Assembly: GCF_020618415.1 (NCBI RefSeq)
Contig: NZ_CP085345.1
Span: 372,001-436,000, forward strand
Source: Cupriavidus sp. MP-37
Lineage (GTDB): Bacteria > Pseudomonadota > Gammaproteobacteria > Burkholderiales > Burkholderiaceae
Length of the DNA stretch: 64,000 nucleotides
Reading direction: 5' to 3'
Shown: in pieces, positions 44,647 to 53,988 of the stretch
Layout of the letters: the number at the start of each line of letters is the position of its first letter
Numbering within the stretch: position 1 is the first letter of the stretch
Program-made: the position numbers and the translations under genes
The notes under the pieces: model-generated
Told to the model about the DNA's origin: nothing
The model's input: only the letters and a program-made list of their open reading frames with translations
The model's database searches: none

Positions 44647-45291
44647 TCAGGGCTTGCTGCGCAGGGCCCTGGCCTGTTCGGCCAGCGCGCGGATGCGGCC
44701 CCAGTCGCCGCCGGCGACGGCATCCTTGGGCACCACCCACGACCCGCCCACGCACACCACATTGGGCAATGCCAGGTAGGACGGCGCCAGCGCGGCATCG
44801 ATGCCGCCGGTCGGGCAGAAGCGCAGCTGCGGCAGCGGCCCGCCCAGCGACTTCAGCATCGGCACCCCGCCCGCGGCCTGCGCCGGGAAGAACTTGAGGA
44901 AAGTGAAGCCGGCTTCCAGGGCCGCCATGGCCTCGCTGGCGGTGGCGACGCCCGGCAGCAGCGAGATCCCGGCGCCTTGCGCGCCTTCGGCCAGCGCCGG
45001 CGTCAGGCCGGGCGAGACCGCAAACTGGGCGCCCGCGTCGCGCACCGCGTGCAGTTGTTCCACGTTCAGCACCGTGCCGGCGCCCACGCAGGCTTGTGGC
45101 AGCGCGGCGGCGACCGCGCGGATCGCCGCCAGCGCCACCGGGGTGCGCAGCGTGATCTCAAGCAGCGGCAGGCCACCGGTTACCAGCGCCTCGCTGACAT
45201 GCAGGGCCTCGTCGACCGAGTGGAATTCCAGCACCGGGATCACCGGCACATCGGCAAGGCGTTGAAGCAGCGGGGAAGTCTGGTTTGACAT
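44647..45291 (-). CDS. eda: 2-keto-3-deoxy-6-phosphogluconate (KDPG) aldolase
   Basis: 214 residues of normal length. The Schiff-base lysine is Lys133 in GFTFLKFFPA, Glu45 in LLEITLRTP, and the phosphate site in FCPTGGI. It cleaves KDPG to pyruvate and glyceraldehyde 3-phosphate. It is the last gene of the leftward group eda-kdgK-deaminase and would finish the pathway proposed for the cluster. Confidence 0.95.
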   Translation of the reverse strand: MSNQTSPLLQRLADVPVIPVLEFHSVDEALHVSEALVTGGLPLLEITLRTPVALAAIRAVAAALPQACVGAGTVLNVEQLHAVRDAGAQFAVSPGLTPALAEGAQGAGISLLPGVATASEAMAALEAGFTFLKFFPAQAAGGVPMLKSLGGPLPQLRFCPTGGIDAALAPSYLALPNVVCVGGSWVVPKDAVAGGDWGRIRALAEQARALRSKP

Positions 45292-45342
45292 GGCGATCTC
45301 GCGGTATATGGGTTCAGGAAAACATCAGGTTCGGGCAACGGC

Positions 45343-46278
45343 TCATGCGATCACCGATACCGACTGCGCCAGCCGCGCCAGCACGGTCTGCGCATCCGGA
45401 ATCGGCGCCACCGCGCCATAGCCGGTGGTCGACAACGCCGCCGCCACATTGGCATAGCGCGCCGCCTCGAACGGATCGGCGCCCGCGGCCAGCCGCGCGA
45501 CGAAGCTGCCGCCGAAGCAATCGCCGGCGCCGGTGGCATCGACCGGCTTGACCGGATAGGCTGGTACCAGGCTGCGGGACTCGGGCGTGGCGATATACGA
45601 GCCCTCCTCGCCCAGCTTCAGCGCGACCAGGCCGATGCCGCAGCCGAGCAGGTAGTCGGCGATGGCATCGCGGTCGTCCAGCCCGGTCAGCACGGTAATG
45701 TCGTCCCAGCTGGGCAGGCATACGTCGGTCATCCGGAAAGCTTCGCGCATGATGCCGCGCGCGCGCGCCAGCGACCACAGGCGCAGCCGCAGGTTGGTGT
45801 CGAGCGTGACCCTGGTGCCGGCCTTGCGCGCGTGCTCCATCGCATCCAGGCCGGCATCGCAGGCGCTGGTGCTGATGGCCAGGCTGATGCCGGAGAGGTG
45901 CAGGTAGCGCGCCGCGGCGATCGCACCCAGCGGCAGCTGGTCGTGCTGGTAGCGGCTGGCGGCGGAGCCTTCGCGCAGGTAGTCGAAGCGGTGGCCGTGG
46001 TTGTCGTGCGAGACAAAGTAGACGCCGGTGGGCGCACCGGCGTCGACGAGCACATGCCGTGTGTCGACGCGCTCCTGCGTCCACAGTGCACGCAGGCGCT
46101 CGCCGAAGGTATCGGCACCGACCGCGCAGATATAGCCGGTGCTGGCGCCCTGGCGCGCGGCCGCAATGCAGAAGTTGGAGGTATCGCCGCCAAAGCCCTG
46201 CAGGTAGCGCGACGGATCGTCCGGCTGCTGGTTGAATTCAACCAGCGGCTCGCCATAGGCGAGGATATCGATGCTCAT
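45343..46278 (-). CDS. kdgK: 2-keto-3-deoxygluconate (KDG) kinase, PfkB family
   Basis: 311 residues. N-terminal GEPLVEFNQQPDDPSRYLQG, then FGGDTSNFCIAAARQGA, is typical of KdgK; the C-terminal PfkB signature DATGAGDCFGGSFVARLAAG has the catalytic Asp in GAGD. It phosphorylates KDG to KDPG. It lies 51 bases from eda and 13 from the deaminase. Other PfkB sugar kinases are possible, but the context favours KDG. Confidence 0.9.
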   Translation of the reverse strand: MSIDILAYGEPLVEFNQQPDDPSRYLQGFGGDTSNFCIAAARQGASTGYICAVGADTFGERLRALWTQERVDTRHVLVDAGAPTGVYFVSHDNHGHRFDYLREGSAASRYQHDQLPLGAIAAARYLHLSGISLAISTSACDAGLDAMEHARKAGTRVTLDTNLRLRLWSLARARGIMREAFRMTDVCLPSWDDITVLTGLDDRDAIADYLLGCGIGLVALKLGEEGSYIATPESRSLVPAYPVKPVDATGAGDCFGGSFVARLAAGADPFEAARYANVAAALSTTGYGAVAPIPDAQTVLARLAQSVSVIA

Positions 46279-46291
46279 GGGACCGCTTGCC

Positions 46292-47560
46292 TCAGAAGAA
46301 GGTTTGCACGATGTCGATCACGCGCATGTCGCGATCCAGCACCGGGATATGGCGCCACTTGTCGAAGGTCAGGCACGGGTGCGAGATATCGAAGGCGATC
46401 ATGTCGCCGACCTGGATATCGTCGCCCGGCTTGACCTGCAGATAGGCGTGCTGGTCCATCATGCCGGTGACTTCCCAATGCGCGGGCACGTCCACCGGCG
46501 CCTCGGCACCCGGGCGGTACAGGCGCGCCGGGATCGGCATGCCGGCGTCGAAGGCGGCATCGCGCTTGCCCATGCCGATGATGACGCGGTCGGGTTCCGG
46601 AATCGACTGCACATAGGCCCACAGCTGCAGCGCCGGCAGCAAGCCTTCGCGCATTTTCTGCGCGACCGGGTTGCTCGCCAGGATGCGCTGCTGCGCGGCG
46701 CGGTAGATGCCCACATCGTGCGTCAGGTAGCAGCCGGGACGCAGCACGATGTCGATCGGCGCGCCGATGTCGGTGCGCGCGAATTCCTCGGCGACCACGT
46801 CGTACCAGGCCGAGCCCGCACCGGACATCACCACCGGGCTGCGGCCGAAGCGGCCTTGCGCGGCCAGTTGCCGCGTCACCGCGACGGTGCGCTGCAGGAA
46901 CTTGCGGATCTCGGCTTCTTCCTTCAGCACGCCCTCGTAGATCTCCACGCCGGCCAGCGACAACGCCTCGGGCCAGCGCGCCAGCGCGTCGAGCACGGCC
47001 TGCTGCTGCGCGTCGTCGCGCACGCCGGTACGCCCGCCTTCGACGCCCAGCTCCAGCAGCACCTGCAGCTTCTGTCCGCGCTGCCGGAAGAACTTGCCGA
47101 GCTGGTCGACCAGCGCGGCCGAATCCACCAGCGCGAAGAATTCAAACCCGGGATCGCGCAGCAGGTCCGCGATGATTTCCATATTGCGGCGGCCGACCAG
47201 CTGGTTGGCCATCAGCACGCGCCTGACGCCATGCGCATGCGCGGCCGCGGTCTGGTGCGCAGTGGCCAGGGTGATGCCCCACGCGCCGGCTTTGAGTTGC
47301 CGGGCAAACAGCTTGGGCGCCATCGTGGTCTTGCCATGCGGCGCCAGCTGCACGCCGTATTCGTCCATGAAGCGGCGCATCCATTCCAGGTTGTGCGCGA
47401 GCCGGTCTTCATAGAGCACCGCGGCGGGCAGGCTCAATTCTTCCTGCAACAGATTCCAGCCGGTCTGGCCAGCCGCGTCCGGGGCGATGGGAGCCTCCAT
47501 CCGACCCAGCGCCTTGTTGAGCGGATCGATCACGCCAGCCTGATACTTTATTTCACGCAT
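46292..47560 (-). CDS. PLP-dependent deaminase, D-threonine aldolase/D-serine dehydratase fold; candidate D-glucosaminate dehydratase
   Basis: 422 residues from ATG 47560; GTG 47572 and ATG 47569 are alternatives. The N-terminal alanine-racemase-like barrel has LAPHGKTTMAPKLF with the PLP lysine (Lys77) and LMANQLVGRRN. The C-terminal domain carries the metal motif ISHPCLTFDKW (His-x-Cys) found in D-serine dehydratases. Such enzymes remove ammonia from D-amino acids with a 3-hydroxyl group. The adjacent kdgK and eda suggest that the product is 2-keto-3-deoxygluconate, meaning the substrate is D-glucosaminate. This substrate is inference. Confidence 0.85.
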   Translation of the reverse strand: MREIKYQAGVIDPLNKALGRMEAPIAPDAAGQTGWNLLQEELSLPAAVLYEDRLAHNLEWMRRFMDEYGVQLAPHGKTTMAPKLFARQLKAGAWGITLATAHQTAAAHAHGVRRVLMANQLVGRRNMEIIADLLRDPGFEFFALVDSAALVDQLGKFFRQRGQKLQVLLELGVEGGRTGVRDDAQQQAVLDALARWPEALSLAGVEIYEGVLKEEAEIRKFLQRTVAVTRQLAAQGRFGRSPVVMSGAGSAWYDVVAEEFARTDIGAPIDIVLRPGCYLTHDVGIYRAAQQRILASNPVAQKMREGLLPALQLWAYVQSIPEPDRVIIGMGKRDAAFDAGMPIPARLYRPGAEAPVDVPAHWEVTGMMDQHAYLQVKPGDDIQVGDMIAFDISHPCLTFDKWRHIPVLDRDMRVIDIVQTFF

Positions 47561-47600
47561 GCCTATCATCACCCTGAAAAAATCTGATTGACGTAATGAT

Positions 47601-47637
47601 ATCCCTGAAAATAAGATATTTCATCCCTGTTATAAAG
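47601..47637. promoter_or_regulatory. Direct-repeat operator between deaminase and RpiR genes
   Basis: Two 15-mers, ATCCCTGAAAATAAG (47601) and ATCCCTGTTATAAAG (47623), lie 22 bases apart, that is two helical turns. A dyad TGAAA-N8-TTTCA (47606-47623) links them. They sit in the divergent promoter region, a natural RpiR binding site controlling both operons. Confidence 0.6.
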
Positions 47638-47786
47638 TAACATACGAGACCCGGACGAGCCGGTGCGCTGGCAGCAAGCGAGCCATGCAGCGGCCGCTAG
47701 TCACTGTTATAGCCCCTGCCCACGCTGCCTGCAGATTTCGTCACATTACGATTCCGGCCCGTTTCGCCACCACGCCCTCTCCGAAC

Positions 47787-48692
47787 ATGACCGCGCCCTT
47801 CGACATCCTGACCCGCATCGCCGAGCGCGGCCCCGCCCTGCGCCTGGCCGAGCAGAAGGTGGCGCAGGTAGTGCTGGAAGACCTGGCCGGCGCGGCGGCG
47901 GCAAGCATCAATGAGCTGGCCCGCCAGGCCGGCGTCAGCGAAGCCAGCGTGACGCGCTTCGCCAAGGCCATCGGCTGCCGCGACGTGCGCGACCTGAAGC
48001 TGCGGCTGGCCCAGGCCGCGGCGGTGGGTGCGCGCTTCCTGCAGCCCGGCAACGTTCCCGCCGCTGAAGCCGCGCCCGCCACGCTGGCCGACAGCATCCA
48101 CGCCGACATCCTCAGCGCGCTCGAAGCCAATCGCGGGCTGCTGGATGCGCAGCGCATCGAGCAGGCCGCGCGCCTGTTGCTGGGCGCACGCATGGTCTAC
48201 GCTTTTGGCATGGGCGGCGGCTCGTCGTTCATGGCCGATGAAGCGCGCCACCGCCTGGCGCGCCTGGGCCTGCCGGTGGCCAGCTACCAGGATGCCCTGC
48301 TGCAGAAGATGGTGGCGGCCACGCTGGGCCGCGACGACGTGGTGCTGGCCTTCTCGGCCAGCGGCCGCGTACCGGAGATGCTGGCCAGCTGCGATATCGC
48401 GCGCGAGTACGGCGCCCGCCTGGTGGCCGTGACCGCGCTGGGCTCGCCGCTGGCGGCGCGTGCCGACGTGCTGCTGCCAGTGCGCACGCTCGAGACGGAT
48501 TTCATTTTCAAGCCATCGGCCTCGCGCTACGCCATGCTGATGGTGCTGGACGTACTGGCGACGCAGTGCGCGCTGTTGCAGCCGGACCAGAGCAAGGAGC
48601 GCCTGCGCCGGCTCAAGTACGTGCTCGACAGCCACCGCGGCGACAGCGGCCCCGGCAAGGGCCCCGACAGCCGCCAGCCGCTGGGAGACTGA
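47787..48692 (+). CDS. RpiR-family regulator with SIS domain
   Basis: 301 residues from ATG 47787. The N-terminal HTH is INELARQAGVSEASVTRFAK, then AIGCRDVRDLKLRL. The C-terminal SIS sugar-phosphate domain includes VYAFGMGGGSSFMADEARHR, VVLAFSASGRVPEML. It likely senses a phosphorylated intermediate such as KDPG. It is the first gene of the rightward operon and two bases from the deacylase. Confidence 0.9.
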   Translation: MTAPFDILTRIAERGPALRLAEQKVAQVVLEDLAGAAAASINELARQAGVSEASVTRFAKAIGCRDVRDLKLRLAQAAAVGARFLQPGNVPAAEAAPATLADSIHADILSALEANRGLLDAQRIEQAARLLLGARMVYAFGMGGGSSFMADEARHRLARLGLPVASYQDALLQKMVAATLGRDDVVLAFSASGRVPEMLASCDIAREYGARLVAVTALGSPLAARADVLLPVRTLETDFIFKPSASRYAMLMVLDVLATQCALLQPDQSKERLRRLKYVLDSHRGDSGPGKGPDSRQPLGD

Positions 48693-48694
48693 CC

Positions 48695-50149
48695 ATGCCA
48701 CACCTGTTCGACACCCTGATTCGCTGCGTGACGCTGATCGACGGCTCCGGCGCGGCCGCGCGCCTGGCCGACGTGGCCTTGCGCGATGGCCGCATCGCCC
48801 GCATCGATGCCCCCGGCGCGATCGATCCCGATGCGGCCGCGCACGTGGTCGAGGGCGATGGCCTGGTGCTGGCACCGGGCTTTATCGACGTGCACACGCA
48901 CGACGACACCAACGTGGTACGCCAGCCCGAGATGACGCCCAAGCTGTCGCAGGGCGTGACCACGGTGGTGGTCGGCAACTGCGGCATCAGCGCCGCGCCG
49001 GTCACGCTGGCGGGCGATCCGCCCGACCCGATGAACCTGCTCGGCCATGCCGACGCCTTCCGCTATCCGGATTTCAAGACCTATGTCGATGCGGTCGAGG
49101 CCGCGCAGCCCGCGGTCAACGTCGCCGCGCTGGTCGGCCATACCGCGCTGCGCAGCAACCATATGGACCGCTTCGACCGCGCCGCGACGCCGCAGGAAAT
49201 CGCCGCGATGCGCGCGCAGCTGGAAGAAGCGCTGCGGCACGGGGCGCTGGGCCTGTCCACGGGACTGGCCTACGCCAACGCCTTCAGCGCGCCGACCGAC
49301 GAAGTGCTGGCGCTGGCCGAGCCGCTGGCCGACGCCGGCGCGCTCTACGCCACCCATTTGCGCAGCGAATTCGCCGAGATCCTCGAGGCCATGGACGAGG
49401 CCTTCCGCATCGGCCGCCATGCGCGCGTGCCGGTGGTGATCTCGCACCTGAAATGCGCCGGCGTGGCCAACTGGGGCCGCAGCACCGAAGTGCTGGACGC
49501 GCTCGACGGCGCGCAGCGCTGGCAGCCGGTCGGCTGCGACTGCTATCCGTACACCGCCAGCTCTTCCACGCTGGACCTGAAGCAGGTCACCGGGGACTTC
49601 GACATCATGGTGACCTGGTCCGAAGGCGCGCCGGAGATGAGCGGCCGTCTGCTCGCCGACATCGCCGCCGAATGGCAGGTCGACCTGCACCAGGCGGCGC
49701 GCCGGCTGATGCCCGCCGGCGCGGTCTACCACTGCATGGAAGACGCCGACGTCGATCGCATCCTGAGCCATCCCGCCACGGTGGTCGGCTCGGACGGCCT
49801 GCCCAACGACCCGCTGCCGCATCCGCGCCTGTGGGGCGCGTTTCCGCGCGTGCTCGGCCACTACGCGCGCGACCGCGAACTGTTCCCGCTGACCGTGGCC
49901 GTCAACAAGATGACCGGCATGTCGGCCGAGCGCTTCGGCCTGCGCCAGCGCGGCTTCGTGCGCGAAGGCTACTGGGCCGACCTGGTGCTGTTCGACGCCG
50001 CCACGATCCGCGACGCCGCCAGCTTTACCGATCCCATGCAGCCGGCCGAGGGCATCGCCTCGGTCTGGGTCAACGGCGAGCTGTCATGGCAGCAGCGCCA
50101 GAGCACCGGCGTGCGCGCCGGCCGGTTCCTGCCCCGCGGTGCCGGCTGA
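48695..50149 (+). CDS. N-acyl-D-amino-acid deacylase family amidohydrolase; candidate N-acetyl-D-glucosaminate deacetylase
   Basis: 484 residues, usual D-aminoacylase length. Metal ligands lie in PGFIDVHTHDDTNV (His67, His69) and GNCGISAAP (Cys96). The fold continues with ALSTGLAYANAFSAPTDEVL-like GLSTGLAYANAF, THLRSEF and VVISHLKCAG. The C-terminus has GFVREGYWADLVLFDAATIR. It would strip an acyl group from an N-acyl-D-amino compound. Operon context favours N-acetyl-D-glucosaminate. It begins two bases after the regulator stop. Confidence 0.85.
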   Translation: MPHLFDTLIRCVTLIDGSGAAARLADVALRDGRIARIDAPGAIDPDAAAHVVEGDGLVLAPGFIDVHTHDDTNVVRQPEMTPKLSQGVTTVVVGNCGISAAPVTLAGDPPDPMNLLGHADAFRYPDFKTYVDAVEAAQPAVNVAALVGHTALRSNHMDRFDRAATPQEIAAMRAQLEEALRHGALGLSTGLAYANAFSAPTDEVLALAEPLADAGALYATHLRSEFAEILEAMDEAFRIGRHARVPVVISHLKCAGVANWGRSTEVLDALDGAQRWQPVGCDCYPYTASSSTLDLKQVTGDFDIMVTWSEGAPEMSGRLLADIAAEWQVDLHQAARRLMPAGAVYHCMEDADVDRILSHPATVVGSDGLPNDPLPHPRLWGAFPRVLGHYARDRELFPLTVAVNKMTGMSAERFGLRQRGFVREGYWADLVLFDAATIRDAASFTDPMQPAEGIASVWVNGELSWQQRQSTGVRAGRFLPRGAG

Positions 50150-50201
50150 CCCGCACGCACCGCCGCTTCCCTCACTATCCAACCAATTTCCAGGAGTACT
50201 C

Positions 50202-50594
50202 ATGGACATCAAACGATTCGGCGTCGAAGGCGGCACCGGTACCGGCGGCCAGCACATGCCCTTCGCCCGCGCGGTCGCGGCCGACGGCTGGCTCTACGTC
50301 TCCGGCCAGGTGCCGATGGTCAACGGCGAGGTCATCGACGGCGGCATCGTGCCCCAGACCCACCAGGCCATCAAGAACGTGCTGGCCATCCTGGCCGAGG
50401 CCGGCTACGGCCCCGAGCACGTCGTGCGCTGCGGCGTGTGGCTGGACGACACCCGCGACTTCGCCTCGTTCAACAAGATCTTCAAGGAATACTTCGGCGC
50501 CAACCCGCCCGCGCGCGCCTGCGTGCAGTCGAGCATGGTGGTCGATTGCAAGGTCGAGGTCGACTGCATCGCCTACAAGAAGCCGGCGGCCTGA
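50202..50594 (+). CDS. RidA/YjgF-family imine deaminase
   Basis: 130 residues from ATG 50202, with CAGGAG ahead. The RidA core PFARAVAADGWLYVSGQVPM, then NGEVIDGGIVPQTHQAIKNV and NPPARACVQSSMVV with the conserved Arg. RidA proteins hydrolyse 2-aminoacrylate-like enamine/imine intermediates released by PLP dehydratases. Here it would speed the final hydrolysis after the deaminase. Located between the deacylase and the permease. Confidence 0.9.
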   Translation: MDIKRFGVEGGTGTGGQHMPFARAVAADGWLYVSGQVPMVNGEVIDGGIVPQTHQAIKNVLAILAEAGYGPEHVVRCGVWLDDTRDFASFNKIFKEYFGANPPARACVQSSMVVDCKVEVDCIAYKKPAA

Positions 50595-50638
50595 GCCTGC
50601 TGCCTGCTTGATTCCTGATTGCCTGCTGAGGGTCTGCT

Positions 50639-50773
50639 CCCCTCTCCCATGAAATGGGAGAGGGGCGGGGGTGAGGGCGGGAGCCTCCACGAAGCGAGCG
50701 CCATCGTACCTGGCAGGCGCCTGCCCTCACCCCCTGCCCCTCTCCCGCGTGCGGGAGAGGGGAGAAAACAAGC
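50639..50773. repeat. BIME-like pair of REP elements
   Basis: Left REP: hairpin CCCCTCTCCC/GGGAGAGGGG (50639-50665) then GGGGGTGAGGGC (50667-50678). Right REP is in inverse order: GCCCTCACCCCC (50723-50734) then hairpin CCCCTCTCCCGC/GCGGGAGAGGGG (50737-50762) and AGAAAACAAGC. The arrangement is two inverted copies about 45 bases apart. The same right-hand unit recurs at 61435-61472. Confidence 0.75.
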
Positions 50774-50828
50774 TAGAAGCCTGACGTCTGCCGCCACGAG
50801 CGGCTCTTTTTCCACGCAAGGAGACAAT

Positions 50829-52190
50829 ATGGGTGCCGTCACCGGAACCACGCTCTTGGTGTATGCGCTGATCGCAGTGATCGCACTGGTGGTGCTGATC
50901 GCGCGCTACAAGCTCAACCCGTTCATTACCCTGGTCGTCGTCTCGGTGCTGCTCGGCTTTGCCGTGGGCATGCCGATGAGCGAGATCGTCAAGTCCTTTG
51001 AAGCCGGTGTCGGCGGCACCCTCGGCCATATCGCGCTGGTGGTAGGCCTGGGCACCATGCTGGGCAAGATGATGGCCGAGTCCGGCGGCGCCGAGCGCAT
51101 CGCCAACACGCTGATCGATTTCTTCGGGGCGAAGAACGTGCATTGGGCCATGGCCACCATCGCGTTCATCGTCGGCCTGCCGGTGTTCTTCGAAGTGGGT
51201 TTCGTGCTGCTGGTGCCGATCGCCTTCAACGTGGCCAAGCGCACCGGCACGTCGATGGTGCTGGTCGGCATCCCGATGGTGGCCGGGCTGTCGGTGGTGC
51301 ACGGCCTGATCCCGCCGCATCCGGCCGCGCTGCTGGCGGTGACCGCCTATGGCGCCGATATCGGCAAGACCATCATGTACGCGCTGATCGTGGGCATCCC
51401 CACCGCCGCGCTCGCGGGTCCGCTGTTCGCCCGGCTGATGGACCGCTACGTCAAGCTGCCCGAATACAACCCGCTCGCCGAGCAATTCACCGAAGAGGAC
51501 GAGCGCGTCAAGGAATCGCACCAGTTGCCGGGCTTCGGCATCACGGTGTTCACCATCCTGCTGCCGGTGGTGCTGATGCTGATCGGCAGCTGGGCTGACC
51601 TGTTCACTACGCCCAAGACCTTCGCCAACGACTTCCTGAAACTGATCGGCAATTCGGTGATGGCGCTGCTGATCGCGGCGCTGGTCAGCTTCTACACCTT
51701 CGGCAAGGCGCGCGGCTTCAATCGCGAAACCATCCTCAAGTTCACCAACGAGTGCGTGGCGCCCACCGCCATCATCACGCTGGTAGTCGGTGCCGGCGGG
51801 GGCTTCGGCCGCATCCTGCGCGACTCGGGCATCTCCACCGCCATCGTCGACGTTGCCACCGGTGCCAACGTGTCGGTGCTGGTGCTGGGCTGGCTGGTCG
51901 CGGTGATGATCCGCATCGCCACGGGCTCGGCGACGGTTGCCATGACCACCGCCGCGGGCATCGTCGCGCCGATCGCCGCCAGCGTGCCCGGCACCCGCCC
52001 CGAACTGCTGGTGCTGACCACCGGCGCCGGCTCGCTGATCCTGTCGCACGTGAACGACGGCGGCTTCTGGCTGGTCAAGGAGTACTTCAACATGACCGTG
52101 GCCCAGACCTTCAAGACCTGGTCGGTCTGCGAAACCATCATCTCGGTGGTGGCGCTGCTGCTGACGCTGGGCCTGGCCACGCTGGTCTGA
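50829..52190 (+). CDS. GntP-family sugar-acid permease
   Basis: 453 residues with about 12 membrane helices. GntP motifs: LGTMLGKMMAESGGAERIAN, IVGLPVFFEVGFVLLVPIAF, HGLIPPHPAALLAV and a C-terminal RIATGSATVAMTTAAGIVAP. The family imports gluconate and related sugar acids by proton symport. Within this operon it probably imports N-acetyl-D-glucosaminate or glucosaminate. It follows RidA across a REP element. Confidence 0.9.
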   Translation: MGAVTGTTLLVYALIAVIALVVLIARYKLNPFITLVVVSVLLGFAVGMPMSEIVKSFEAGVGGTLGHIALVVGLGTMLGKMMAESGGAERIANTLIDFFGAKNVHWAMATIAFIVGLPVFFEVGFVLLVPIAFNVAKRTGTSMVLVGIPMVAGLSVVHGLIPPHPAALLAVTAYGADIGKTIMYALIVGIPTAALAGPLFARLMDRYVKLPEYNPLAEQFTEEDERVKESHQLPGFGITVFTILLPVVLMLIGSWADLFTTPKTFANDFLKLIGNSVMALLIAALVSFYTFGKARGFNRETILKFTNECVAPTAIITLVVGAGGGFGRILRDSGISTAIVDVATGANVSVLVLGWLVAVMIRIATGSATVAMTTAAGIVAPIAASVPGTRPELLVLTTGAGSLILSHVNDGGFWLVKEYFNMTVAQTFKTWSVCETIISVVALLLTLGLATLV

Positions 52191-52401: not shown

Positions 52402-52608
52402 ATGCGCACGACTGTCACGATCGATGACGCCCTGTATGAACAAGCCCTGGAGATGGCGGACCCCGGCATGGACAAAGCAGACCTGTTTCGCGAGGCAATC
52501 AAGACATTCGTTCGGGTGCAGGCCGCCAAGCGCCTCGCGGCCCTCGGCGGCGCCGCCCCCGACATGCAGGACATCCCCCGCCGCAGTCCCGAACCCGACG
52601 TGAAATGA
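52402..52608 (+). CDS. vapB: VapB-type antitoxin
   Basis: 68 residues. The N-terminal ribbon-helix-helix ([20 protein letters not shown]) binds DNA; the helical tail ([20 protein letters not shown]) ends in a Pro/Ser/Arg-rich segment that would wrap the toxin. The stop overlaps the toxin start as ATGA (52605). Confidence 0.88.
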
Positions 52609-52985
52609 GCGTGCTCGTCGACACTTCGGTGTGGGTGAGCCATTTCCGGCACCGCAACGACGCCCTGATCCGCCTGATGGAGGCGGACCAGGTGCTGATC
52701 CACCCCATGGTCGTGGCGGAACTGGCCTGCGGCACGCCACCGGCGCCCCGGGCACAGACGCTCGGCGACCTGGGGCTGTTGCAGGCGGCCAGGCAGGCGA
52801 CGCAGGCAGAAGTCATCGCACTGGTCGAGCGCGAGCAACTGTATGGGCTGGGCTGCGGCCTGGTGGATGTCACGTTGCTAGCTTCGACCCTGATTACCCC
52901 CGGCGCCCGGCTTTGGACACTGGACCAGCGCCTGAACGCTTTGTCCGCCCGCTTTGGCGTGGGATATCGTCCTCGTCTCCACTAA
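52605..52985 (+). CDS. vapC: PIN-domain ribonuclease toxin VapC
   Basis: 126 residues. The acidic PIN residues are visible: Asp in [12 protein letters not shown], Glu in VVAELACG, Asp in [12 protein letters not shown] and Asp in LWTLDQRL. It would cleave a specific RNA, often an initiator tRNA or the sarcin-ricin loop. It is paired with the overlapping vapB gene. Confidence 0.9.
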
Positions 52986-53070: not shown

Positions 53071-53988
53071 ATGTCGATCGACCGTCGCTCATTCCTTGGC
53101 CTGGCCGCCGGACTGGCCGCCACCGGGTTCGGGCCAGCGCTGCCGGCCCATGCCGCCACCGTCGCCGCGCCACTGCGCCGCACCATTCCAGGCACCACCG
53201 AAGCCCTGCCCGTGATCGGCATGGGCACCGCCGACACCTTCGACGTCGGCACCGGCCCTGACGAACGCAAGCCGTTGGCGGAGGTCATGGGGCTGTTGCT
53301 GCAGACCGAAGGTTCGGTGGTCGATACCGCGCCCAGCTACGGCAGTGCCGAAGCCGTGACCGGCGATCTGCTGCGCGCGGCGAATGCACGCAACCGGGTC
53401 TTCCTCGCCACCAAGATCTCGGCCCGATCCGGCGCACCGGCGCAGGCGCAATGGGAACGCTCGCTGGCCGACCTGCACGTCGACAAGGTCGACCTGCTGC
53501 AGATACACAACCTGATCGACTGGCAAAACAACCTGCGCTGGCTGCGCCAGTTGAAGGAGCAAGGCCGCATCCGCTACCTGGGCATCACCCATTACCGCGA
53601 CGACGCCCACGAAGCCCTGGAAAAAATCCTGCACGCCGAGCGTGTGGACTTTGTCCAGATCAATTACTCCGTGGGCGAGCGCAATGCCGAGCGCACGCTG
53701 CTGCCGCTGTGCGAGGCGCGTGGCGTCGCAGTGCTGATCAACCGGCCGTTCCAGGATGGCCGCCTGTTCCGCGTGGTCAAGGACCGCCCGCTGCCGCCAT
53801 GGGCCGGCGACATTGACTGCGGCTCATGGGGCCAGTTGTTCCTGAAATTCGTCGTCAGCCATCCGGCCGTGACCGCTGCCATCCCGGCCACCTCCAAGCC
53901 GCGCAATATGGCCGACAACCTCGGCGCCGGGCTGGGCCGCATGCCCGATCCCGGGCAGCGCGAGCGCATTGCGGCGCTGCTGCGCTAA
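53071..53988 (+). CDS. Tat-exported aldo/keto reductase
   Basis: 305 residues. A twin-arginine signal (RRSFLGLAAGLAATGFGPAL, then PAHA) leads into an AKR barrel: VDTAPSYGSAEAVTGDLLRA with the catalytic Tyr, FLATKIS with the Lys and LLQIHNLIDWQNN with the His-Asn. It should fold with NADPH-type cofactor in the cytoplasm and be exported. The next gene is 12 bases downstream and likely co-transcribed. Confidence 0.85.
   Translation: MSIDRRSFLGLAAGLAATGFGPALPAHAATVAAPLRRTIPGTTEALPVIGMGTADTFDVGTGPDERKPLAEVMGLLLQTEGSVVDTAPSYGSAEAVTGDLLRAANARNRVFLATKISARSGAPAQAQWERSLADLHVDKVDLLQIHNLIDWQNNLRWLRQLKEQGRIRYLGITHYRDDAHEALEKILHAERVDFVQINYSVGERNAERTLLPLCEARGVAVLINRPFQDGRLFRVVKDRPLPPWAGDIDCGSWGQLFLKFVVSHPAVTAAIPATSKPRNMADNLGAGLGRMPDPGQRERIAALLR

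Follow-up and report, generated by a model that had tools for sequence, protein, structure and literature searches.

A candidate ong-type gene cluster for N-acetyl-D-glucosaminate catabolism in Cupriavidus sp. MP-37

The cluster and its closest described relatives

In marine bacteria, oxidized amino sugars can be degraded through the ong pathway, which was described in Pseudoalteromonas prydzensis ACAM 620 and leads from N-acetyl-D-glucosaminate (GlcNAc1A) through D-glucosaminate (GlcN1A) and 2-keto-3-deoxygluconate (KDG) to 2-keto-3-deoxy-6-phosphogluconate (KDPG) (PMC9537276). For the P. prydzensis homologues, the activities of OngB, OngC and KdgK, as well as repression by OngR, have been established experimentally (PMC9537276, PMC12017989), and OngD was reported to be essential, with an unknown role (PMC9537276). 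Here, we analyzed a 64,000-nucleotide stretch of Cupriavidus sp. MP-37 (contig NZ_CP085345.1, positions 372,001 to 436,000; hereafter the window), in which seven genes at positions 44647–52190 probably form, as judged from their sequences, the catabolic core of an ong-type pathway for GlcNAc1A. The chemistry of this pathway is already known, and predictions that Cupriavidus uses glucosaminate date from 2010 and 2013.

The seven genes are organized in two divergent groups, with eda, kdgK and a deaminase gene on the minus strand and genes for an RpiR-type regulator, a deacylase, a RidA protein and a GntP permease on the plus strand. The original prediction, made from the letters of the window, had described this arrangement around the regulator gene, and all seven genes were located at the positions and on the strands it gave:

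44647–45291, minus strand: eda, KDPG aldolase (PF01081, 235 bits)
45343–46278, minus strand: kdgK, KDG kinase of the PfkB family (PF00294, 186 bits)
46292–47572 (probable start near 47560), minus strand: ongC-like pyridoxal phosphate (PLP) fold-III deaminase, predicted D-glucosaminate deaminase (PF14031, D-ser_dehydrat, and PF01168, Ala_racemase_N)
47787–48692 (open frame from 47685), plus strand: ongR, RpiR/HexR-type regulator (PF01418, HTH_6, and PF01380, SIS)
48695–50149, plus strand: ongB, predicted GlcNAc1A deacetylase, usually named D-aminoacylase (Amidohydro_3; match to PpOngB 9kb1, residues and tree)
50202–50594, plus strand: ongD, RidA/Rid family (PF01042)
50829–52190, plus strand: gntP, aldonate:H+ symporter, predicted GlcNAc1A/glucosaminate importer (PF02447, 547 bits; TIGR00791 above cut-off)

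The favoured starts are 47787 for ongR, where the alignments of its orthologues begin, 48695 for ongB, 50202 for ongD and 50829 for gntP. The gaps within the two groups amount to 51, 13, 2, 52 and 234 nt, a spacing compatible with two operons. The 234-nt gap between ongD and gntP holds two inverted copies of a GC-rich repeat resembling repetitive extragenic palindromes at 50637–50765 (CCCTCTCCC... and ...GGGAGAGGGG), followed by a terminator-like site at 50790–50804 (the region contains 8 terminator-like sites versus 3.3 in shuffles). Because the repeats and this site precede gntP, the permease gene may be transcribed partly separately.

In the proposed route, GntP would import GlcNAc1A and OngB would take off its acetyl group. 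OngC would then carry out an alpha,beta-elimination with loss of ammonia to yield KDG, with OngD presumably helping at the enamine or imine stage. KdgK would phosphorylate KDG and Eda would cleave the product to pyruvate and glyceraldehyde-3-phosphate, and OngR would repress from a single operator that lies just past the ongR promoter and upstream of the leftward one. The sequence of intermediates originally predicted, from GlcNAc1A through glucosaminate, KDG and KDPG to pyruvate and glyceraldehyde-3-phosphate, matches the published and tested pathway, with the specificity residues of OngB kept; the marine parallel which that prediction had mentioned corresponds to the ong pathway of P. prydzensis.

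Like the ACAM 620 cluster, the locus encodes OngB, OngC, OngD (RidA), KdgK and an RpiR-type OngR with the same proposed chemistry (PMC9537276). The ACAM 620 route further comprises the SSS-family symporter OngIT, the GH20 enzyme OngA, TonB-dependent receptors and a separate lytic polysaccharide monooxygenase (LPMO), whereas the window has GntP and the genome yields no GH20 or LPMO_10 match. The window cluster also has a built-in eda; an added kdgA is reported for clusters of Vibrio, Klebsiella and Serratia (PMC9537276). The same paper counts a cluster as ong when four or more homologues of the ACAM 620 proteins occur together at more than 30% identity. Here, OngB is 53% identical to the P. prydzensis enzyme (PpOngB), and ongC, ongR, ongD and kdgK were matched at the family level, the identity figure being for OngB alone. 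The TonB-dependent receptor OngOT-1, which is excepted from the conserved ong genes (PMC9537276), has no counterpart among the seven genes and was not sought elsewhere in the genome. As a whole, the cluster is an ong variant that differs in its importer and carries its own central aldolase, and no front end for chitin cutting was found.

Genes resembling the left operon have been described in Cupriavidus itself. H16_B1211–B1213 of Ralstonia eutropha (Cupriavidus necator) H16 were assigned to a glucosaminate hydrolase/deaminase, kdgK and eda (PMC3734047), and the glucosaminate genes of C. necator JMP134 comprise a glucosaminate hydrolase/deaminase and kdgK (PMC2842291). In 2010, glucosaminate use was predicted from the deaminase and the KDG kinase in the Cupriavidus and Ralstonia strains compared (PMC2842291). 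The H16/JMP134 glucosaminate locus is probably orthologous to that of the window, which differs from the descriptions in that the relevant passages of PMC3734047 and PMC2842291 name neither a deacetylase, RidA or GntP nor an acetylated substrate.

The deacylase and the enzymes acting after it

PpOngB deacetylated GlcNAc1A as the sole amino sugar among those tested and had no detectable activity on N-acetyl-D-amino acids; its substrate-bound structure shows which residues are involved in sugar-chain binding (PMC12017989). The window OngB keeps residues A193, E226, A256, S290, S291, S292 and Q298 of PpOngB. It matches PpOngB (PDB 9kb1) at 533 bits and AfDam, the D-aminoacylase of Alcaligenes faecalis (PDB 1m7j), at 475 bits, and besides the 53% to PpOngB it is about 63–64% identical to PDB 9g5m and 49% identical to AfDam. 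Related loci were defined as the best 80 of 491 confirmed deacylase relatives, with one genome scanned per species, and all counts out of 80 below refer to this set. The subtype V metal site (C97/H222/H252) and the catalytic D368 are present in the window OngB and in 80/80 relatives.

AfDam shares the metal site and the catalytic aspartate with the window enzyme and is reported to have the same fold, whereas its pocket is hydrophobic and it falls outside the OngB clade. At positions 193, 226, 256, 290, 291, 292 and 298 it carries F, E, M, G, S, T and R, five of which (193, 256, 290, 292 and 298) differ from PpOngB; the R at 298 in our alignment corresponds to Leu298 in PMC12017989, and a small alignment shift is likely. 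In the related loci, the specificity residues are kept throughout, save S292, which is kept in 77 and replaced by T in L055, L057 and L066. In these three loci (Trinickia/Paraburkholderia), no ongR or ongD homologue was found nearby, and the specificity of their OngB may be different.

A further 20 stretches around OngB matches were analyzed, 19 from other genomes and one holding a paralogue of the window's own genome. The 17 stretches scoring at least 714 bits all keep A193, A256, S292 and Q298, with S290 changed to G in two and S291 changed to A in two. The three low-scoring ones (605, 600 and 527 bits) carry F193, T292 and L or R at 298. The last of them is the genome's own D-aminoacylase-type paralogue (G000:C2:2103339-2104718, in L169), which with F193/T292/R298 serves as a natural negative control.

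A maximum-likelihood tree was computed from 42 rows, comprising 18 of the 80 named loci, all 20 stretches, three PDB chains and the window itself. It puts the window OngB, PpOngB and 9g5m on one side and AfDam with the three low-scoring sequences on the other, with a branch support of 100/99. The OngB side is only partly resolved internally, and PpOngB forms a long branch. A tree of this kind had been proposed with the original prediction as a check, and for the deacylase it groups the window protein with PpOngB, apart from the D-aminoacylases. Taken by clade, residues and metal site, the prediction that the window deacylase is an OngB-type GlcNAc1A deacetylase is well supported. The PDB entries 9g5m and 9gv8, deposited as "Amidohydrolase family protein", share its pocket residues save position 348 and are 98% identical to the ongB product of a genome (G352) from the same class as the window genome but another order; a literature search under these two codes found no paper.

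The predicted deaminase OngC is 45–70% identical to the same-role gene product in eight other ongB-holding loci, seven of them from the same class but another order, and matches PDB 3gwq ("D-serine deaminase") at 636 bits. Invariant in the nine aligned sequences are P78, H79, G80, K81 and T82, a PHGKT-type motif, and a C-terminal H398-P-C400. We take the lysine of the PHGKT-type motif to be the PLP binder and H-x-C to mark dehydratases and deaminases as opposed to aldolases. The PDB alignments of OngC to aldolases end before the H-P-C motif.

For KdgK, the best NCBIfam match is KDG_KDGal_kin, at 185 bits versus a cut-off of 400. Its best PDB match is named fructokinase (2v78, 129 bits), followed by the KDG kinases 1wye and 1v19 (125 and 108 bits). 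The cluster Eda passes the KDPG/KHG aldolase cut-offs. KdgK and Eda indicate a keto-deoxy sugar acid. Two genes in the genome match PF01081, the cluster eda at 235 bits and another at 95 bits, and two genes pass the edd cut-off. As the sole strong KDPG aldolase gene of the genome, eda probably also feeds the general Entner-Doudoroff flux, and it is unlikely to be dedicated to GlcNAc1A.

Importer, operator and promoters

The importer gene of the cluster is gntP and not a gene of the SSS family, to which the published importer OngIT belongs (PMC9537276). A gntP gene lies near ongB in 30/80 related loci and in six of the 17 OngB-type stretches, namely L153 from the same order and L154, L155, L159, L163 and L165 from the same class. 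On plasmid 1 of Gemmatirosa kalamazoonensis (NZ_CP007129.1), ongB and gntP are adjacent and divergent, and both proteins are 69% identical to those of the window; this pair, found in another phylum (Gemmatimonadota), looks like horizontal transfer. Given this recurrence in related loci, stretches and the Gemmatirosa plasmid, gntP beside ongB is no local accident. A PDB search found no solved GntP relative. GntP is the predicted importer of GlcNAc1A or glucosaminate.

The region between ongC and ongR contains three regulatory features:

47628–47642, no strand assigned: predicted OngR operator TGTTATAAAGTAACA, TGTTA-N5-TAACA, conserved in ongC–ongR intergenic regions
47588–47617, plus strand: sigma-70-like promoter TTGACG-N18-TAAGAT of the ongR operon, found by scan, with a conserved TTGAC
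47596–47624, minus strand: promoter-like site ATGAAA-N17-TATCAT of the ongC-kdgK-eda operon, found by consensus scan only

Operator conservation was counted over 72 ongC–ongR regions, comprising 71 divergent loci and the window, with the nine non-divergent loci of the 80 omitted. The ten arm positions of TGTTA-N5-TAACA are matched in full in 39/72 regions, at nine positions in 32/72 and at eight in one. In dinucleotide shuffles, 0.36 regions per set reach at least nine arm positions, a figure that overstates the case for the operator because the motif was chosen from the same regions and these regions are related. The sites span Cupriavidus, Herbaspirillum, Collimonas, Duganella, Glaciimonas, Pandoraea, Silvimonas, Ralstonia, Paraburkholderia and Caballeronia. 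Furthermore, a TTGAC box stands 22–40 nt ahead of TGTTA in 65/72 regions versus 0.5 in shuffles.

The 6.1-Mb genome contains one exact operator site and no other within two mismatches, with 0 for the reversed control. Exact-arm operators were also found in two stretches from other genomes, namely in L153, which belongs to the same order, and in L158, which is from the same class and has two copies ahead of ongC, and once in C. metallidurans (L173); the Gemmatirosa (L174) and Klebsiella (L175) plasmids have none. In the window, the operator lies just downstream of the −10 box of the rightward promoter, which it would block, and just upstream of the leftward −35-like box, and this position makes unequal repression of the two operons possible. 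The best NCBIfam match of OngR is HexR, at 180 bits versus a cut-off of 296. We infer that OngR binds TGTTA-N5-TAACA.

Two other motifs were considered as operators. A HexR-type operator (TGTARTNNNAYTACA, which we take to be the consensus) gave two matches in the window at two mismatches, neither of them in the cluster, and 10/100 shuffles equalled this; it was dropped. The palindrome TGAAA-N8-TTTCA (TGAAAATAAGATATTTCA, 47606–47623) has exact arms in only 14/72 regions and overlaps the promoter hexamers, and was not used as the operator. It has a single exact match in the window and three at one mismatch, the latter count being reached by 0/100 shuffles, so the palindrome is above chance and may be the site of a second regulator.

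Distribution, alternative substrates and substrate source

All related loci, going by their titles, belong to what we take to be the betaproteobacteria in the older sense, and the closest named relative of the window OngB among them comes from a Cupriavidus metagenome-assembled genome (98% identity). Near ongB, homologues were found for ongC in 78 loci, ongD in 77, ongR in 76, gntP in 30, kdgK in 27 and eda in 24, six of the last being distant (38–42% identity). ongC and ongR are divergent in 71/80, and ongR, ongB and ongD are co-stranded in 76/80. The full set of seven genes occurs in 17/80 loci, 15 of them Cupriavidus or Cupriavidus-like and two Ralstonia. Since this layout recurs across related loci, the seven-gene grouping put forward originally is not due to chance. 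The constant core consists of ongC, ongR, ongB and ongD, and the importer, kinase and aldolase vary between loci.

Downstream of gntP, the window contains a PIN-domain open reading frame (ORF) at 52605–52985, which is VapC-like and under the NCBIfam cut-off, and an aldo/keto reductase gene at 53071–53988 whose product has a Tat-like N-terminus (RRSFLGLAAG). On that side of ongB, L003, L004 and L017 contain an ORF family equal in size to the reductase.

Several observations weigh against the assignment to GlcNAc1A. The left-operon counterpart in H16 was induced on fructose (PMC3734047), a response that induction by GlcNAc1A only would not predict. The assayed enzymes of PMC12017989 come from Pseudoalteromonas, and the passages concerned mention no Burkholder- name, Cupriavidus or Betaproteobacteria. 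P. prydzensis OngC also takes D-serine and D-threonine (PMC9537276). At OngB position 348, the window has C versus G in PpOngB; across the 80 loci, this position is C in 29, N in 46 and G in five. Only Eda and GntP pass NCBIfam subfamily cut-offs, and KdgK, OngC, OngR, OngB and OngD reach none. An exact-arm operator is lacking in 17 of the 19 stretches from other genomes, and repeats and a terminator-like site stand ahead of gntP. Finally, the Paraburkholderia/Caballeronia loci, some of which are cut by contig ends, show no kdgK or gntP beside the core, and nothing local proves a sugar acid there. Pfam scans of 20 ORF representatives from the loci revealed no convincing aldonate importer beside this core; matches included MFS_1, QueF and a threonine-dehydratase-like protein, and six of the 20 had no family match, some of them probably antisense ORFs.

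Among the alternatives, the cluster could serve mainly for already deacetylated D-glucosaminate and gluconate-type acids supplied by neighbours, with OngB as a side branch. The older Cupriavidus annotations read glucosaminate (PMC2842291, PMC3734047), GntP is a gluconate-family importer, and the downstream enzymes would function without OngB. We nevertheless consider this improbable in view of the kept specificity residues and the co-stranding of ongB with ongR and ongD, although that count is no independent evidence because the loci were found through ongB. Use of N-acyl-D-amino acids, with a D-aminoacylase, a D-serine/D-threonine deaminase and RidA standing merely adjacent to kdgK-eda, appears quite improbable. 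It would agree with the names of the homologues (D-aminoacylase, amino acid deaminase and, for 3gwq, D-serine deaminase), with the reported activity of P. prydzensis OngC on D-serine and D-threonine, and with the many Paraburkholderia/Caballeronia loci that consist of the ongC/R/B/D core alone. Yet the OngB pocket has the residues of the GlcNAc1A deacetylase, for which no activity on N-acetyl-D-amino acids was detected (PMC12017989), a D-aminoacylase-type paralogue is encoded separately in the genome, at C2:2103339, the importer belongs to the gluconate family, and several genera have kdgK or gntP next to the core.

A stereoisomer such as N-acetyl-D-galactosaminate or N-acetyl-D-mannosaminate is a very improbable natural substrate: the best NCBIfam match of KdgK is a bifunctional KDG/KDGal kinase and galacto-type genes accompany some related clusters, but the window kinase is of the PfkB type and not DGOK, the aldolase passes KDPG/KHG cut-offs, and PpOngB was exclusive for GlcNAc1A among the amino sugars tested, other N-acetyl aldonates going unnamed in the passages of PMC12017989 concerned. 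The galacto-type genes occur in two settings. The Klebsiella pneumoniae plasmid NZ_OP378649.1 (L175) has this core too, together with a sugar-acid kinase, an aldolase, an RpiR regulator and an SSS symporter; its genes are named 2-dehydro-3-deoxygalactonokinase and 2-dehydro-3-deoxy-6-phosphogalactonate aldolase, and clusters of this kind may serve a galacto-type N-acetyl aldonate. Six Paraburkholderia loci (L042, L058, L071, L072, L076 and L079) have an eda-like gene (38–42% identity) 3–5.5 kb downstream of ongB, and all except L058 also have, at 3–5.5 kb, an ORF of a family whose L072 representative matches DGOK. These genes may belong to an adjacent galactonate operon or represent a galacto-type branch.

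The oxidative chitin use invoked by the original prediction is unsupported inside this genome, in which profile searches at E 0.001 gave no match to LPMO_10 (AA10 LPMO), GH18 or GH20; a GH20 hexosaminidase corresponding to OngA is absent from the cluster as well. A single GH19-like match (47.6 bits, over the cut-off) most likely represents a phage-type endolysin (PHROG 181, 230 bits; a phage "chitinase" family reached 132 bits in the same scan). Membrane pyrroloquinoline quinone (PQQ) glucose dehydrogenase (TIGR03074) was likewise not found in the genome at the strict limit of 1e-100; soluble sugar dehydrogenases and oxidases lay outside this search. The lack of matches to LPMO_10, GH18 and GH20 makes uptake of the substrate from outside the most likely case, and the cluster is probably a GlcNAc1A-using core that is uncoupled from chitin cutting and serves scavenging. 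Alternatively, the cell itself might supply GlcNAc1A, through a soluble GlcNAc dehydrogenase, another oxidase or a further internal source of aldonate.

To place this in the family, 200 genomes including that of the window were sampled, with OngB judged by score and not residue by residue. An OngB-profile match was found in 142/200, of which 139 reach at least 735 bits after dropping the weak matches in G038, G167 and G185. LPMO_10 is present in 28 of these 139 genomes and absent from 111. LPMO_10, GH18 and GH20 are all lacking in 72/139, and 43/139, including the genome of the window, lack membrane PQQ glucose dehydrogenase too. The GH18 set numbers 63 at E 0.001, 60 of them over the cut-off, and some of these may not be chitinases. 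Among 397 Pseudomonadota genomes, 35 have an OngB-type score (at least 705 bits), 28 have LPMO_10 and nine have both. OngB is positively associated with LPMO_10, GH18, GH20 and the membrane glucose dehydrogenase (odds ratios 2.8, 5.2, 6.8 and 29), and we draw no inference from co-occurrence p-values because genome reduction and common descent within the sample might produce the association. Jiang et al. listed genomes with both an ong cluster and an LPMO, naming one betaproteobacterium, Achromobacter piechaudii (PMC9537276).

In the open-licence literature, subscription papers being outside our scope, we found no report of GntP as a GlcNAc1A importer, of an LPMO-free betaproteobacterial ong cluster, or of an operator or acetylated substrate for this group. 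Tentatively, with slightly less than even confidence, we suggest that the GlcNAc1A pathway of free-living Burkholderiaceae is a widespread, long-kept scavenging route independent of the organisms' own chitin oxidation, with a gluconate-family importer and one conserved OngR operator, and that in Cupriavidus it has become joined to the only strong Entner-Doudoroff aldolase, which would bring an oxidized amino sugar and ordinary sugars under one control point. If this is true, many genes of soil- and plant-associated Burkholderiales named D-aminoacylase, D-serine deaminase or D-threonine aldolase would encode sugar-acid enzymes. A pathway known from marine chitin degraders would also be common in bacteria without the usual chitin-cutting enzymes, on the scale of the 139/200 family genomes identified by score. 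This would point to a cross-fed pool of oxidized amino sugars, a common public good of soils to which the LPMOs or sugar dehydrogenases of other organisms would contribute.

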